A stretch of DNA of 64,000 nt from Oscillatoria salina IIICB1 (GTDB lineage Bacteria > Cyanobacteriota > Cyanobacteriia > Cyanobacteriales > SIO1D9). This document shows positions 1,757 through 9,725 of the stretch, in pieces. Position 1 is the stretch's first letter; each line of letters starts with the position of its first letter. The notes beneath the pieces were generated by a model. That model did not search any database. It saw nothing but the letters and a program-made list of their open reading frames with translations, and was not told the DNA's origin. The DNA lies in NCBI RefSeq assembly GCF_020144665.1, contig NZ_JAAHBQ010000023.1:1-64000 (forward strand), given 5' to 3'. A program made the translations under genes and the position numbers.

Positions 1757-3079
1757 GTGGCGCCACTACCTCCACCTTCTGTTAAATTTTTAAAAGAAAA
1801 GCGATCCTTACGTTTTGATTTGATTATAATGGAAATTTTGATAGCAATTACGACTGGTTTAAGTTCTGTTTTCTGGGTGGAACTGGTAAGAGACTCTTAT
1901 CATGTTCTCGGTCACGTCCTACCTTCATTGTATCGACTGCACGTTTGGCATCATCGAGTTTTTCGCCCAGACTTATCAGTAGTCAGCGATACGATTTACC
2001 GGAAAGCCCACTGGTATAATGACGTACCAGAAGCTTTAGTGATGCTGCTGTTCAGTTTATTACCGCCAGGAATCATGTTGATTTGGGGAATTGAGCAGCA
2101 ATGGACAGCATGGGCTGGTACTCTTTATACAATCTTCTTTTTGTTGAGTGCGATCGCGCGAGGATTGGGAATAGCCTACGCAGACGAATTAACTGACCTT
2201 ACCCATCGTCCCGGCAGCTTTACCAGCTTACCTGGAAAATGGTTAGTTAATCGATCCTATCACTGGCGACACCACTTCGACAATCAAAACGCCTATTATT
2301 GCGGTACATTCACCTTCATCGATAAAATCATGGGTACAGCAGTTTCGCTCAAAGGTAAAACCGTAGCTATCACTGGAGCATCGGGAACGTTAGGTAAAAG
2401 TTTAATCCAAGAGTTGCGATCGCGGCAAGCAAAAGTTATCGCCCTTACTTCTAGCGGAAAAACTGTTGCTTTGACACCCAATGACCCAGTTAAAACTATT
2501 ATCTGGCAAGTTGGTCAAGAAGCAGAACTCGCAAGCGAATTGGAAAAAGTTGATATCCTGATTATTAATCATGGTATCAATGTACATGGCGACAGGAAAA
2601 AAGAAGATATTGCTCTTTCCTACGAAGTTAACACTTTTTCCGCTTGGCGCTTAATCGAATTATTTTTTACAACTGTCAAAACCGATGCAGATAAAGTTAC
2701 CAAAGAAGTTTGGGTAAACACCTCTGAAGCAGAAGTTGGACCCGCTTTTAGTCCCCTTTACGAACTAACTAAACGTTCATTAGGAGACATTGTTACCCTC
2801 AAACGTTTAGATGCACCTTGTGTCGTCCGCAAACTAATTTTAGGTCCTTTCAAAAGTAACCTCAACCCCATTGGGGTGATGTCTAGCGACTGGGTAGCCA
2901 AGCAAATAATTAACTTAGCAGTTCGCGATTTTCGGGACATTATTGTCACCATCAATCCTCTGACTTTTCTCGCCTTTCCTATCAAAGAAATTTGCGTTTC
3001 CACCTACTTTAAATTGTTTACCAATCAAAGCCCAGAAACCAGCAGCGACAACTTACCCGAAGTCAATTCATTGTCATAA
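1757..3079 (+). CDS. Sterol desaturase-like / short-chain dehydrogenase fusion protein
   Basis: A two-domain protein of 440 residues. The N-terminal half is a membrane fatty-acid-hydroxylase/sterol-desaturase-like di-iron domain with histidine clusters DSYHVLGH, HVWHHR and YHWRHHFDN and several hydrophobic segments. From about residue 200 it becomes a Rossmann short-chain dehydrogenase with the nucleotide motif TGASGTLGKS, an NHG motif and an active-site-like YELTK. This fusion is known from cyanobacteria; the substrate (carotenoid, lipid or other) is not evident. The reading frame opens with GTG at 1757. The ATG at 1829 lies just before the first membrane helix and may be the true start. It stands alone, divergent from the glycosyltransferase. 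Confidence 0.75.
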   Translation: MAPLPPPSVKFLKEKRSLRFDLIIMEILIAITTGLSSVFWVELVRDSYHVLGHVLPSLYRLHVWHHRVFRPDLSVVSDTIYRKAHWYNDVPEALVMLLFSLLPPGIMLIWGIEQQWTAWAGTLYTIFFLLSAIARGLGIAYADELTDLTHRPGSFTSLPGKWLVNRSYHWRHHFDNQNAYYCGTFTFIDKIMGTAVSLKGKTVAITGASGTLGKSLIQELRSRQAKVIALTSSGKTVALTPNDPVKTIIWQVGQEAELASELEKVDILIINHGINVHGDRKKEDIALSYEVNTFSAWRLIELFFTTVKTDADKVTKEVWVNTSEAEVGPAFSPLYELTKRSLGDIVTLKRLDAPCVVRKLILGPFKSNLNPIGVMSSDWVAKQIINLAVRDFRDIIVTINPLTFLAFPIKEICVSTYFKLFTNQSPETSSDNLPEVNSLS

Positions 3080-4373: not shown

Positions 4374-5159
4374 ATGCCCTCTCCTTTCCCTGGAATGAAC
4401 CCCTACTTAGAAAGTCCTTTATTTTGGTCAGGATTTCACCATTGGTTAATTATCGATATTGCTAGATTACTCTCACCCCAACTACGACCAAAATATCTAG
4501 TAGCAGTAGAAGTTCGTACCTACGAAACTAGCGGCGAAGATAGTTTATTAGTCGGACTTCCTGATGTTACCATTAAAGCTGCTCAAACCGCAAGCAAATC
4601 AACAAAAACTAATGTCGCTGTCGCCACACCAGCAACTAAACCTTTAACTGTAAATTTACCAATTCCAGAAACAATTAAAGAAGGATATTTAGAAATTAGA
4701 GACGTAAAAACTAAGCAAGTAATTACCGCAATTGAACTATTATCACCTACAAACAAACGTAGCGGAAAAGGTCGAGAAAAATACTTGCAAAAACGCCAGA
4801 GAATCTTAGGAAGTTCCACTCATTTAGTCGAAATAGATTTATTACGTGGGGGACAAACAATGCCGATGGATACTAAGGGAATTAAAAGCGATTATCGGAT
4901 TTTAGTTAGTAAAGAAAATCGTCGTCCCCAAGCTGATTTATATGCTTTTAACTTGCGTGAAACTATTCCAGAATTTCCCCTTCCCTTACGTCGAGAAGAT
5001 AGCGAACCAGTAATTAATTTACAAGCATTAATTAATCAAATTTACGACCAAGCTAGCTTTGATTTACAAATCGATTATTCTCAGCCACCGATACCCAAAC
5101 TTACGGAAACAGAGCGAACTTGGGCTGATGATTTGCTACAACAATTAGGACTAAAATAA
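4374..5159 (+). CDS. DUF4058 family protein, tandem copy 1
   Basis: A 261-residue protein beginning with the family hallmark PFPGMNPYLE. DUF4058 proteins are common and often multicopy in cyanobacteria, with no established function. No membrane segment or signal peptide is visible. It is nearly identical to the gene 37 bp downstream, apart from a short divergent block at residues 24-33 and a few scattered codons. The start is ATG. The two genes share the same leader, so each probably has its own promoter copy. Confidence 0.85.
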   Translation: MPSPFPGMNPYLESPLFWSGFHHWLIIDIARLLSPQLRPKYLVAVEVRTYETSGEDSLLVGLPDVTIKAAQTASKSTKTNVAVATPATKPLTVNLPIPETIKEGYLEIRDVKTKQVITAIELLSPTNKRSGKGREKYLQKRQRILGSSTHLVEIDLLRGGQTMPMDTKGIKSDYRILVSKENRRPQADLYAFNLRETIPEFPLPLRREDSEPVINLQALINQIYDQASFDLQIDYSQPPIPKLTETERTWADDLLQQLGLK

Positions 5160-5196: not shown

Positions 5197-5982
5197 ATGC
5201 CTTCTCCTTTTCCTGGAATGAACCCCTACTTAGAAAGTCCTTTATTTTGGTCAGGATTTCATCACCTTTTAATTAGCACAATTGCTTTTTCTCTCTCTCC
5301 ACAACTACGACCAAAATATCTAGTAGCAGTAGAAGTTCGTACCTACGAAACTAGCGGCGAAGATAGTTTATTAGTCGGACTTCCTGATGTTACCATTAAA
5401 GCTGCTCAAACCGCAAGCAAATCAACAAAAACTAATGTCGCTGTCGCCACACCAGCAACTAAACCTTTAACTGTAAATTTACCAATTCCAGAAACCATCA
5501 AAGAAGGATATTTAGAAATTAGAGACGTAAAAACTAAGCAAGTAATTACCGCAATTGAACTATTATCTCCCACCAACAAACGCGCCGGAAAAGGTCGAGA
5601 AAAATACTTGCAAAAACGCCAGCGAATCTTAGGAAGTTCCACTCATTTAGTCGAAATAGATTTATTACGTGGGGGAGAAGCAATGCCGATGGATACTAAT
5701 GGAATTAAAAGCGATTATCGGATTTTAGTTAGTAAAGAAAATCGTCGTCCCCAAGCTGATTTATATGCTTTTAACTTGCGTGAAACTATTCCAGAATTTC
5801 CCCTTCCCTTACGTCGAGAAGATAGCGAACCAGTAATTAATTTACAAGCATTAATTAATCAAATTTACGACCAAGCTAGCTTTGATTTACAAATCGATTA
5901 TTCTCAACCACCGATACCCAAACTTACGGAAACAGAGCGAACTTGGGCTGATGATTTGCTACAACAATTAGGACTAAAATAA
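5197..5982 (+). CDS. DUF4058 family protein, tandem copy 2
   Basis: The second copy is also 261 residues and starts PFPGMNPYLE. The clustered difference from copy 1 is around residues 23-33 (LLISTIAFSL here, against WLIIDIARLL in copy 1), with scattered changes such as Ser to Ala near residue 129. The repeat period is 823 bp and includes the leader. The gene ends 7 bp before the convergent channel gene on the minus strand. Function is unknown; the near-identity implies recent duplication or ongoing gene conversion. Confidence 0.85.
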   Translation: MPSPFPGMNPYLESPLFWSGFHHLLISTIAFSLSPQLRPKYLVAVEVRTYETSGEDSLLVGLPDVTIKAAQTASKSTKTNVAVATPATKPLTVNLPIPETIKEGYLEIRDVKTKQVITAIELLSPTNKRAGKGREKYLQKRQRILGSSTHLVEIDLLRGGEAMPMDTNGIKSDYRILVSKENRRPQADLYAFNLRETIPEFPLPLRREDSEPVINLQALINQIYDQASFDLQIDYSQPPIPKLTETERTWADDLLQQLGLK

Positions 5983-5989
5983 CGACAAT

Positions 5990-8284
5990 TTAAACATATT
6001 TCCAGTAGAACAAAAGCGAACTGACTAATAAAATTATCGGAAAAGCAATGCGAGAAAACTTCATTAATGCTACGCTCTGTTTTTGTTCGTGAAACCGATT
6101 GCTACGACCAATCGTCAAGATTAGCAATTCTAAAGCCAATAAACTATAAACAATGTAGAAAGCATAGTCAAGGGCAACTACATAACCTACTCCTTCTGGT
6201 AGTGCATCAATTAAACTAAGGTGATAAAAAACAACTGCTAGAAGTAGTCCACTCACAGCTTCAATAGAAATATCCTCAAAAGGAAGGAAGAGGATGAGAT
6301 AAGCGACAACAACGAAAAAGAATAAAGGTAATAAATTTTTGTCGCTGAAACTAATAAAATCTCGTTCGATCTCGATAACAGCATTAAAACGAGAATATTG
6401 CATCTCTGAGTCAGCATCAATAAAGCGGCGATCGCCTAATGTTGACGTATTAATCATAATGTCTGGATAAAAGGATATTTTTTCTACATTCCAGTCAGTA
6501 ATTTTGTCAAAAACTTTGCCTCTTGCCCACTTTTCAAGAATCGCCTTAGTGGTTGTGTCTTTTATACCGACATAATCTACTACATAAATTAGTTTATCTC
6601 TAGTTAAATTGGCATGGCGGAAGCGCACAGCTAAGGTTTGGCTATCCAAAGGATAATTACGAAAATCAAATAGTTCGTTAAAATCTGCTTTAATGCGATA
6701 AACTTTATAATTAAGTTCTCCTTGTTGTTCTTCGATAATTGGCTCATCTAAGGTAAATTTTTCACCAGAATCGAGTCTTTCCGTACTATAGTTAGTAAAT
6801 TCAATGTTTTCGGCATTAACATCACCTTGATAGCGGAACCAGAGATAAAAATCTAGCAAATAAGAAGAAGTTTTTTCATCAATTTTACTGACTTCATTAA
6901 TATCAATTCCAACATAGACAATATCGGTTTTTTCTAGATACTGGTTTCCTACTTGAATAATCTGACCACTTTCTAGCTGTTCATTGAAATCGCTAACTTT
7001 TTCTACATCAGAAATAAGTTCTAATTGTGTAAAAGCAGAAATAAATTTTCCTCGATCGAAAACTCCTACATGATAGGGAACTAAGGGATCTCCTTGGCTG
7101 TTAAACTGAGTCTCTTGTGCTTGGGCTTCGATCGTTGTTTCGATCGATTTAAGCTTTGCTAATGCTTCTTTGATTAGATAACGACTTTCTCGAAAATCTT
7201 GTTGCGCGATCGCGTCTCGAAGTAACTGTTTTTCGTCGCTGAAAGATTGTTCAATTGCTGCTACAACTGCATGGGCTGCATCATAGTAACCAGCAGCAAA
7301 CCAACCGGGTATATATCCGTAACGTTCTTCAAATCGATTTCTAAATTGCTGTCCCCTTTCACCAGAAATGTCATAAATAATCGGTGCTAAAGCATAAACA
7401 CCATTGGTAAAAAAACCCGGCTCGTTTTGCTCTTGAGGAGAGTTAGCAAATTTGTGAGCTAACGAAACTTCCCCTAAAGAATTGCCACCAAAAATTGGAA
7501 ATTCTAGCTCGTGAAGCCTAATTTTGGCAAGCAAACTACTACTGTCTTCGCTGTCGGTTGCCATGACAATCATCCCAGGATCTTCACCTTCTTCCTTAAG
7601 GGCAACTAAGTCTTCGACGATTTTATCTTTGGTTAAATTATAAGAATTTTCTTGGATTTCCCACTTTCTAAAAATCTCTCCTCCTAATTCCTCAAAAGCT
7701 ACTTCTATATCTTCGGTTAACTTAACCCCGTAAATGTCAGAGCTATAAACAAGACTAATTCGCGGATATTCAAGAATTTTGTTGATGTAGTTAGCAATAA
7801 AAGTCCCTTGAAGCTTATTACTAAAAATTGTGCGGAAATACCAGTTATTCCATTTAGTTACTTCGTCAGCCGTAGCCGACCCTGTGATTGCAGGAATACC
7901 ATAAGCTTGATAAATTTTTCCTGCTGCTACGGAGGTTGGGATCGAGAAATGACCAATTACAGCTAAAGCTGAGGAACTAACAATGTCTTTAGCAACCTCG
8001 ATTGCTTCGTCTACCTCTCCCTTATCGTCATAAACTCGTAACTCTAGCTTTTTGCCTTCAATGCCACCATTTTCATTAATCTCGTCGATGTAAAGTTGCG
8101 CTCCTTTCAACAAAGATTCACCTGCTGCTGCTGTTGTTTGATCTTCTGAGGTCAAAGGAGCGACAATGGCGATCGCAATTTTCTCTTGAGAAAAGTTAAA
8201 AACATTCCAGCCAATGATGACACTCAGGGTCAAAAGCGCTAAAGATAACCAGATAACAATGTTCTTTTTACTGATTCTGTCCAT
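5990..8284 (-). CDS. Periplasmic-binding-protein / pentameric ligand-gated ion channel fusion
   Basis: A 764-residue receptor-channel (numbered from the ATG at 8284). A membrane anchor (8-28) is followed by a type I periplasmic binding domain of the branched-chain amino-acid/LivJ kind (about 33-450; AIVAPLTS, GHFSIPTSVAAG, YSSDIYG). Next comes a Cys-loop-type extracellular domain (about 452-645) with the prokaryotic Pro-loop signature FDFRNYPLDSQTL (539-551). Four helices end the protein: M1 around 651-667 beginning LLPLFF, M2 near 674-692, M3 700-724 and M4 740-762. This is the pLGIC order seen in GLIC. The frame could open at 8410, but that would overlap the upstream gene. ATG 8284, 17 bp after that gene's stop, is preferred. 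An amino-acid-like ligand gating an ion pore is inferred. Confidence 0.85.
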   Translation of the reverse strand: MDRISKKNIVIWLSLALLTLSVIIGWNVFNFSQEKIAIAIVAPLTSEDQTTAAAGESLLKGAQLYIDEINENGGIEGKKLELRVYDDKGEVDEAIEVAKDIVSSSALAVIGHFSIPTSVAAGKIYQAYGIPAITGSATADEVTKWNNWYFRTIFSNKLQGTFIANYINKILEYPRISLVYSSDIYGVKLTEDIEVAFEELGGEIFRKWEIQENSYNLTKDKIVEDLVALKEEGEDPGMIVMATDSEDSSSLLAKIRLHELEFPIFGGNSLGEVSLAHKFANSPQEQNEPGFFTNGVYALAPIIYDISGERGQQFRNRFEERYGYIPGWFAAGYYDAAHAVVAAIEQSFSDEKQLLRDAIAQQDFRESRYLIKEALAKLKSIETTIEAQAQETQFNSQGDPLVPYHVGVFDRGKFISAFTQLELISDVEKVSDFNEQLESGQIIQVGNQYLEKTDIVYVGIDINEVSKIDEKTSSYLLDFYLWFRYQGDVNAENIEFTNYSTERLDSGEKFTLDEPIIEEQQGELNYKVYRIKADFNELFDFRNYPLDSQTLAVRFRHANLTRDKLIYVVDYVGIKDTTTKAILEKWARGKVFDKITDWNVEKISFYPDIMINTSTLGDRRFIDADSEMQYSRFNAVIEIERDFISFSDKNLLPLFFFVVVAYLILFLPFEDISIEAVSGLLLAVVFYHLSLIDALPEGVGYVVALDYAFYIVYSLLALELLILTIGRSNRFHEQKQSVALMKFSRIAFPIILLVSSLLFYWKYV

Positions 8285-8300
8285 ATCAATTAGTTTGACA

Positions 8301-9725
8301 TTATTGCCAATCCGCAAAAAATTCTTGAAATTGGGCGATCGCGTTTTTGGCTGCTTTTTCTGGAGATATCCCCTCAACCAAGATCCCATAAAGAGCTTCA
8401 CCCCAAACATTTTCTTCTAGCGCCTCTACATAGCCTGGGTTGGTGCTGAAAGAATAAGGACGAGTAGGAGATTGAGTCATAATTTTCTTCACTTCAGTAA
8501 TATGAGGATCGTCAGCATTCGTCCAAAAAGGGTCATTCCAACCAGATGTATTTACAGGAAAAAAACGACCATCTGCTGCTTCGATATAGCTGTCTAAGAC
8601 TGTTGGCTCAATTAGATAGGATAAAAAGCTTTTTGCATCTTTTTGGTTCGGAGAATCTTTAAAGATCAAAGCTTGCCTAACCTCAATTAAGTAGCGCATT
8701 GGCTGACCATCAGGTTTACGGGGAAATTCTATTGTAGCTAGCTTGTTTAAATAAAGATCCTTTTCGTGAAAGCGAGCAGCCGGAATTGAAAGACTGGGAT
8801 TAGCTGTTATCGCCATAATTCGATTATAGAAGCTAGAATTGTTGTCTTCATTTCTCCAGACTAAAGCTGAAGGTGGAATATATCCTTCCTGGTATAACTC
8901 TGACCACCATTTTAAAGCTTCCACAAGTCCTTGACGGTTTTCCTGCTGTTCGATTACTAGCTGCCCTGCTTCGTCCACAACTTGAACGTTGTAGGCTTCT
9001 AAAATATATTCAAAAAGGAAGAAAGTCTCTGTAGAATATGGGGAACTAGGAAACCCTAAACTGAAGATTTCTTGCTGTTGTTCCGAACGCAAGCGCTCTT
9101 GTAATTGAGTCCAAAATTCCCAAAAACCATCCCAATCTTGAGGAATATCTTGTGGACTATATCCTAATTCTTCGAGCCAGTCTCGCCAGTAATGAAGATA
9201 AACAGCTTCTTGATAAAGAGGTACGGCGTAATAGCTTTTTTTCTGCTCAACTTGATTAAAAAGCTGGGCATTTTCTAATGCTGAGTCGGAAATAAAATCT
9301 GCAACTGGTGCGATGGTCGAACTCACATCTACAAGTTTATCTTCCCAGGCATACAAAAGTGCTAATTGAGTGCGATCGATAGTGAGATCGGGAGGATTTC
9401 CTGCTGCTACTGCTGCTTCGATTTGTTCAACTAATTGATTTTCGTCGAAAAAGACTAGCTGAACTTTTTTGTTTTGTTGTTTTTCCCAGTCGTTAACAAT
9501 TTTTTGGAAAAACGTCTTTTCTTCCTCGATAAAACCTTTGTCCCACCAGATGGTAAGTACCCCTGTGTCTAAGGAAAGTCTTTCTATCGTTTCGGCACTA
9601 TCAAAATAAGATTTGTCTACTTGCTCCGATGAGTTTTGACAACCAAATACTATCGTCGCTATTAAAATAATCAGTAAGAATATTGAGAGAGAGAATTTTT
9701 TAACATTTAGCTTTTTCAAGTACAT
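8301..9725 (-). CDS. Extracellular solute-binding lipoprotein (family 1 type)
   Basis: A 474-residue secreted lipoprotein with a positively charged N-terminus, a hydrophobic core and a lipobox ending at Cys29 (VFGC). The mature part looks like a type II periplasmic solute-binding protein of the sugar/polyamine kind: LTIWWDKGF near the N-terminus, AAGNPPDL, then a large C-terminal lobe rich in aromatic residues. No ABC permease or ATPase gene lies nearby. Instead it precedes the receptor-channel fusion by 16 bp on the same strand, so the two are very likely co-transcribed. Its ligand is not evident. Confidence 0.75.
   Translation of the reverse strand: MYLKKLNVKKFSLSIFLLIILIATIVFGCQNSSEQVDKSYFDSAETIERLSLDTGVLTIWWDKGFIEEEKTFFQKIVNDWEKQQNKKVQLVFFDENQLVEQIEAAVAAGNPPDLTIDRTQLALLYAWEDKLVDVSSTIAPVADFISDSALENAQLFNQVEQKKSYYAVPLYQEAVYLHYWRDWLEELGYSPQDIPQDWDGFWEFWTQLQERLRSEQQQEIFSLGFPSSPYSTETFFLFEYILEAYNVQVVDEAGQLVIEQQENRQGLVEALKWWSELYQEGYIPPSALVWRNEDNNSSFYNRIMAITANPSLSIPAARFHEKDLYLNKLATIEFPRKPDGQPMRYLIEVRQALIFKDSPNQKDAKSFLSYLIEPTVLDSYIEAADGRFFPVNTSGWNDPFWTNADDPHITEVKKIMTQSPTRPYSFSTNPGYVEALEENVWGEALYGILVEGISPEKAAKNAIAQFQEFFADWQ

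Follow-up and report, generated by a model that had tools for sequence, protein, structure and literature searches.

A cyanobacterial PBP-I–pentameric channel fusion encoded next to a solute-binding lipoprotein of a histidine-kinase-partner family

Proteins that join a PBP-I domain to a pentameric ligand-gated ion channel (pLGIC) have been known since 2005, so the architecture itself is not new: in the available portions of their survey, Tasneem et al. (PMC549065) reported PBP-I–ART-LGIC fusions of Magnetospirillum and Bradyrhizobium, noted PBP-II genes beside some pLGIC genes and described the cyanobacterial pLGICs as simple. The initial annotation of the present locus was therefore correct in stating that such fusions had been reported. 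These fusions, as presented there, and the protein described here both combine a signal peptide (predicted in the latter), PBP-I, ligand-binding domain (LBD) and four-transmembrane (4-TM) channel in one chain, and the cyanobacterial fusion extends the picture given in those portions, which report no C-terminal PBP-II fusion, MscS fusion or link between PBP-II proteins and a histidine-kinase family. GLIC (from Gloeobacter) and ELIC (from Erwinia) share with our channel the pLGIC fold, the Pro-loop, four TM helices and a short M3-M4 loop but lack a PBP-I domain, and at 2' GLIC has Thr where our channel has Glu. DeCLIC (from Desulfofustis) is likewise a pLGIC that carries a large extra domain in the periplasm at its N-terminus, composed of two calcium-binding lobes rather than a PBP-I; DeCLIC has been called the only pLGIC with an N-terminal domain that is partly characterised (PMC12664993).

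Two further systems invite comparison. Ionotropic glutamate receptors bring together PBP-I and PBP-II sensors and a channel, as do the gene pair described below and, in one chain, its Spirulina relatives; their tetrameric P-loop pore, however, lies inside the PBP-II, whereas our channel has a pLGIC pore, no P-loop pore inserted in a PBP-II, and a PBP-II encoded by a separate gene. In the tripartite relatives, the pore is also of pLGIC type, and the PBP-II is C-terminal. In the cyanobacterial systems composed of a solute-binding protein (SBP) lipoprotein and a dCache histidine kinase, a gene of the same SBP family lies directly upstream of a membrane receptor; the receptor is a kinase in those systems and a PBP-I–pLGIC without a kinase here.

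The window, i.e. the whole stretch of 64,000 nucleotides analysed from Oscillatoria salina IIICB1, contains the following features at this locus.

8301–9725, minus strand: solute-binding lipoprotein gene (PBP-II, SBP_bac_8/SBP_bac_1), 474 aa (Pfam E 7e-26)
5990–8284, minus strand: PBP-I–pLGIC receptor-channel gene, 764 aa (ATG at 8284, stop at 5990–5992; AlphaFold2 model)
8192–8269, minus strand: N-terminal hydrophobic helix, residues 6–31 (helix in model), predicted signal peptide or anchor
7013–8179, minus strand: PBP-I (Peripla_BP_6/ANF_receptor) domain, residues ~36–424 (Pfam; Foldseek match to LivJ-type 4gnr)
6362–7012, minus strand: pLGIC beta-sandwich extracellular domain, residues ~425–641 (family profile against GLIC extracellular and TM domains; Foldseek, VIA)
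6632–6670, minus strand: Pro-loop FDFRNYPLDSQTL, residues 539–551 (sequence, alignment)
6362–6364, minus strand: pre-M1 Arg641 (alignment of 54 relatives, A4)
6293–6358, minus strand: M1 helix, residues 643–664 (AlphaFold2 model)
6206–6265, minus strand: M2 pore helix, residues 674–693 (GLIC alignment and AlphaFold2 model)
6104–6178, minus strand: M3 helix, residues 703–727 (AlphaFold2 model)
5996–6085, minus strand: M4 helix, residues 734–763 (AlphaFold2 model)

The minus strand is stop-free over 5990–8284 and this open frame reads as one protein of 764 aa; the plus strand has stops throughout the same interval. The single frame of 764 residues initially annotated here was thus placed correctly, its strand being minus. 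An alternative ATG at 8410 would yield 806 aa, in a longer frame that overlaps the upstream gene, and M1 at 8284 lies approximately where the relatives start. The full-length AlphaFold2 model (90 relatives in the alignment) had a pLDDT of 89.9 and a pTM of 0.87. Promoter and terminator scans at the locus gave no signal above that of shuffled sequences. On the other side of the channel gene, and convergent with it across a gap of 7 bp, two tandem DUF4058 genes (4374–5159 and 5197–5982, plus strand) are 97% identical (252/261); farther away (1757–3079, plus strand), a 440-aa protein fuses fatty-acid-hydroxylase-like and short-chain dehydrogenase domains.

The HMM search proposed with the initial annotation found the first of its two domains, Peripla_BP_6, at residues 36–363 (E 3e-35), and not the second: no Pfam Neur_chan model matched the 764-aa protein, nor did any match its C-terminal part when this was searched separately and the threshold relaxed to E<10. 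Other comparisons did recognise the channel part. In phmmer searches of PDB sequences, GLIC and chimeric channels were matched at residues 529–759 (E 4e-6 to 5e-5); a five-sequence profile matched solved channels (E 7e-12), and a 54-sequence family profile matched GLIC and GABA-A channels over the extracellular and TM domains (E 5e-24 to 1e-18). The AlphaFold2 model of this part, a beta-sandwich extracellular domain followed by four TM helices, matched GLIC, ELIC and GABA-A structures in Foldseek (E 1e-16) and aligned with those of GLIC and GABA-A with a Z score of ~20 and an rmsd of ~4 over ~280 residues. Because phmmer, the 54-sequence profile and the modelled fold are more sensitive, the assignment to the pLGICs holds despite the Pfam result, and Pfam alone, which misses this whole divergent family, was rejected as a test of membership. 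Of the complete pLGIC module claimed earlier, the fold, the Pro-loop and the four helices stand and the Neur_chan match does not. The failure of pLGIC models on the C-terminal part, named in advance as evidence against a channel, was seen with Pfam and not with phmmer, the family profile or the fold, and the frame, which might have been split in close relatives, is fused in all of them. The gene encodes a receptor-channel fusion composed of a PBP-I and a complete pLGIC subunit.

The Pro-loop proline (P545) and the pre-M1 arginine (R641) are invariant in all 54 aligned channels (A4). Alignment with GLIC places D671 at -2', E675 at 2' and L682 at 9'. The -2' position varies among close relatives (H, Q, N, or L), so the acidic residue of the FEDIS motif, from which cation selectivity had been proposed, was set aside as weak evidence; E675 provides the better argument, since position 2' is Glu in the close cyanobacterial clade and Asp in Xenococcus, and on this basis the pore of the window channel is probably cation-selective. 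In the wider family, both -2' and 2' are strongly variable, with R, M, G, and P in some lineages, and selectivity thus probably differs between lineages.

The PBP-I domain found by Pfam was also evident in the full-length model, whose best Foldseek matches were LivJ-type PBP-I structures (4gnr, E 5e-24). The domain therefore has the LivJ-type fold initially assigned to residues ~33–450, but it ends at ~424. The amino-acid contacts of LivJ, which we take to be S79, T102, Y202, and E226 (E. coli numbering), align with I115, T138, D244, and N268, respectively, and T102 (T138) is the only one kept. Position 115 is Ser in 83 of 90 relatives and Ile in the window protein; position 268 is Asp in 50 of 90 and Asn in the window protein. 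With three of the four contacts replaced, the amino-acid ligand suggested at first is unsupported for this protein and was not retained.

The product of the upstream gene carries a lipoprotein Cys after ...TIVFGC, and its PDB relatives are mainly sugar-binding proteins. This gene is on the same strand as the channel gene and ends 16 bp before its ATG, and the two are probably co-transcribed; in the window, a stand-alone SBP lipoprotein gene is found directly upstream of a gene for a membrane receptor. The same gene order is present in Xenococcus PCC 7305, and the pair was identified in these two genomes only. Window and Xenococcus sequences are sisters in both the channel tree (support 92) and the SBP tree (SH-aLRT 100). 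In the latter, the window SBP nests within a family of histidine-kinase partners: other members, 40–49% identical, are encoded directly upstream of dCache_1–HisKA–HATPase_c membrane sensors, and a sensor of this type lies within 1.5 kb of the SBP relative at 12 of 18 loci (five confirmed by Pfam). No ABC transporter genes were noticed beside the SBP relatives in the six longer neighbourhoods read, with Pfam applied to part of them. The window genome itself also carries an SBP–kinase pair of this SBP family (L160). On a plain reading of these data, an SBP whose relatives elsewhere serve kinase receptors would serve a channel receptor in the window. The presence of this PBP-II partner gene changes the mechanism to be proposed from gating by the binding domain only. 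In most close relatives (Moorena, Okeania, Microcoleus, and Symploca), the channel gene has no PBP-II gene within ~6 kb, so that the partner is either not always needed or encoded elsewhere.

The family was scanned in GTDB with one genome per species, which yielded 109 related stretches, of which 79 loci were kept, and ~95 PBP-I–pLGIC proteins from many phyla were read from them. Cyanobacterial members were found in Moorena, Okeania, Microcoleus, Symploca, Xenococcus, Spirulina, Pseudanabaena, and Nostoc, and others in Desulfobacterota, Beggiatoa-like Gammaproteobacteria, Chloroflexota, Verrucomicrobiota, and one Streptomyces; the order to which the window belongs contains ~26 closely matching places among 391 genomes. 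In two of the ~95 (L081 and L104), the frame is split, the two parts being either 8 bp apart or overlapping, which has the appearance of a frameshift in a draft genome. The window genome contains one further channel on another contig (G000:C33), a dCache_1–pLGIC of 709 aa (L026:7431-9560), around which a convergent PstS-like lipoprotein gene and two Ser/Thr-kinase-like genes are located.

Association with PBP-II proteins recurs in this family in two other forms. In total, 13 distinct proteins of 1174–1304 aa from three phyla are single PBP-I–pLGIC–PBP-II chains, encoded in Spirulina CS-785/01, a Pseudanabaenaceae MAG, the L165 genome, Parabeggiatoa, Halobeggiatoa, and several Chloroflexota (L024:900-8101 in Spirulina, L039–L041, L045, L046, L079, L089, L097, L103, L105, and L165), with tandem genes in Spirulina CS-785/01 (two) and Parabeggiatoa. 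The pLGIC C-terminus after M4 is periplasmic, and the topology thus fits a C-terminal PBP-II fusion. In Desulfobacterota and some Proteobacteria, the neighbours are of SBP_bac_5 type, often PBP-I+SBP_bac_5 fusions, and of the 1,350 ORFs, 18 are SBP_bac_5 frames, every one of which adjoins a channel gene or is next but one to it. The fused C-terminal PBP-IIs share 14–19% identity with the window SBP and form separate clades of a distant subfamily, so that descent of the window PBP-II from these domains as a split-off was rejected and separate recruitments of a like partner are indicated; they accordingly speak for partnership with some PBP-II rather than with the window lipoprotein specifically.

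Other neighbours were observed at these loci. MscS appeared by clustering to be the main conserved neighbour (19 loci), an assignment that was rejected because the cluster had been chained via a 960-aa SBP_bac_5+MscS fusion near a PBP-I–pLGIC gene (L053:306-3188) and most members are SBP_bac_5; after Pfam analysis, the MscS neighbours remaining were only those at L038/L167 and L053, the one at L038 having a cNMP-binding domain and lying downstream of a tandem channel pair. Tandem PBP-I–pLGIC genes are present in Desulfobacterota (L055, L060, L061, L068, L084, L087, L090, L093, L094, L099, and L100) and Nostoc (L080). The first copies of the pairs tend to cluster separately from the second ones in the tree (flip test, P ~0.03, 9 pairs), a hint of two-subunit channels that is suggestive only, and conserved heteromers were not adopted as an explanation. 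In Desulfosarcina, a PBP-I–pLGIC gene is preceded, at a distance of 44 bp, by a GluR0-like gene (SBP_bac_3 + Ion_trans_2 + Lig_chan; L052:2372-3475). At five Pseudanabaena loci (L065:7216-9667, L056, L071, L074, and L076), the PBP-I–pLGIC gene is followed downstream by a gene for a dCache_3(-HAMP) protein and by a second, plain pLGIC that matches Pfam Neur_chan_LBD.

In three cyanobacterial genomes, a PBP-I and a pLGIC-type beta-sandwich LBD are followed by an MscS channel core.

L166:663-3569, minus strand: PBP-I + pLGIC LBD + MscS, Xenococcus PCC 7305
L168:353-3313, plus strand: PBP-I + pLGIC LBD + MscS
L169:1937-4975, plus strand: PBP-I + pLGIC LBD + MscS

The LBD of these fusions matches that of the pLGIC forms with an hhalign probability of 100 (E 9e-49), and the core matches MS_channel_2nd in Pfam (E 2e-14 to 2e-19). 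These fusions lack both the Pro-loop FPFD motif and the pre-M1 Arg, invariant or almost invariant features of the 4-TM forms, as expected if these residues couple the LBD to a pLGIC pore. When the MscS fusion was used as the query across the phylum, the matches listed were mostly PBP or MscS proteins of a single domain and included no additional full-length fusion.

The two genes with their folds, the protein family, the order of the genes and the exchange of partner are observed, and from these we consider the chances about even that the lipoprotein and the PBP-I-crowned channel form one two-part periplasmic sensing unit that gates a cation-selective pore. The channel subunits would assemble as a homopentamer in the inner membrane, with the five PBP-I domains crowning the ring of pLGIC beta-sandwiches. 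The lipoprotein would be a membrane-tethered SBP, loaded most likely with a carbohydrate-type solute, and in its loaded state would dock on the PBP-I crown. Closure or rotation of the PBP-I would then be transmitted through the beta-sandwich to the Pro-loop and the pre-M1 Arg, opening a pore that would be cation-selective, with five glutamates encircling it at 2'. The tripartite chains and the SBP_bac_5 neighbours independently support a PBP-I–pLGIC that works with a PBP-II. A broader interpretation is offered more tentatively: the window operon may encode an SBP-gated channel in which a lipoprotein of a kinase-partner family acts via the PBP-I crown, and the PBP-I and pLGIC LBD, with or without a PBP-II, would be an exchangeable sensor kit that evolution has placed on a pLGIC or an MscS pore.

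The main rival to the two-part unit is that the PBP-I alone binds a free ligand and gates the pore, while the lipoprotein functions independently, in uptake or with a remote kinase, and the gene order is incidental. Such a channel would explain why most close relatives have no nearby PBP-II gene and why a polar pocket is kept in the family (Ser115 in 83/90, Asp268 in 50/90), but the window protein has lost precisely these two residues (I115 and N268), Xenococcus retains the SBP–channel pair, with agreeing channel and SBP trees, and PBP-II association recurs in other forms, which makes this rival unlikely in our judgement. The PBP-I might instead be an assembly or modulatory cap, with an agonist (protons, small amines, or carboxylates) acting, as for GLIC or ELIC, at interfaces of the beta-sandwich. 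The pLGIC ectodomain is indeed complete, with Pro-loop and pre-M1 Arg intact, and the N-terminal domain of DeCLIC appears to modulate kinetics (PMC12664993). Against a cap, PBP-II partners are recurrent, and three genomes place the PBP-I together with the beta-sandwich on an MscS pore, suggesting that these two domains sense as a unit; we regard a cap as distinctly improbable. From the strongly variable pore residues of the wider family one could argue for a metabotropic-like receptor that conducts no ions, or for the relic of a channel that is no longer active, but this is hardly credible given the long, intact and conserved frames across many phyla, the conserved gating residues and the 2' acid ring in the clade of the window.

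Three elements are new here: the swap of an SBP partner from a kinase family, the C-terminal PBP-II fusions, and the MscS fusions without a Pro-loop. Our literature search found no report of a tripartite chain, a kinase-to-channel SBP swap, MscS–PBP fusions such as those described above, or further cyanobacterial PBP-I–pLGICs, a result that a wider search could change. To our knowledge, native agonists are not known for most prokaryotic pLGICs, and a natural pLGIC stimulus might be reached through this locus, by way of the ligand of the lipoprotein first and then the channel. The tripartite chains, each carrying three binding modules, are natural controls for the window channel, and the MscS fusions, which lack the Pro-loop and pre-M1 Arg, are a natural test of how the LBD is coupled to a pLGIC pore. 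A pair of PBP-I and PBP-II sensors on a pentameric channel parallels the ionotropic glutamate receptor with a different pore. These comparisons suggest that bacteria swap one sensor kit between signalling outputs, ion channels included.
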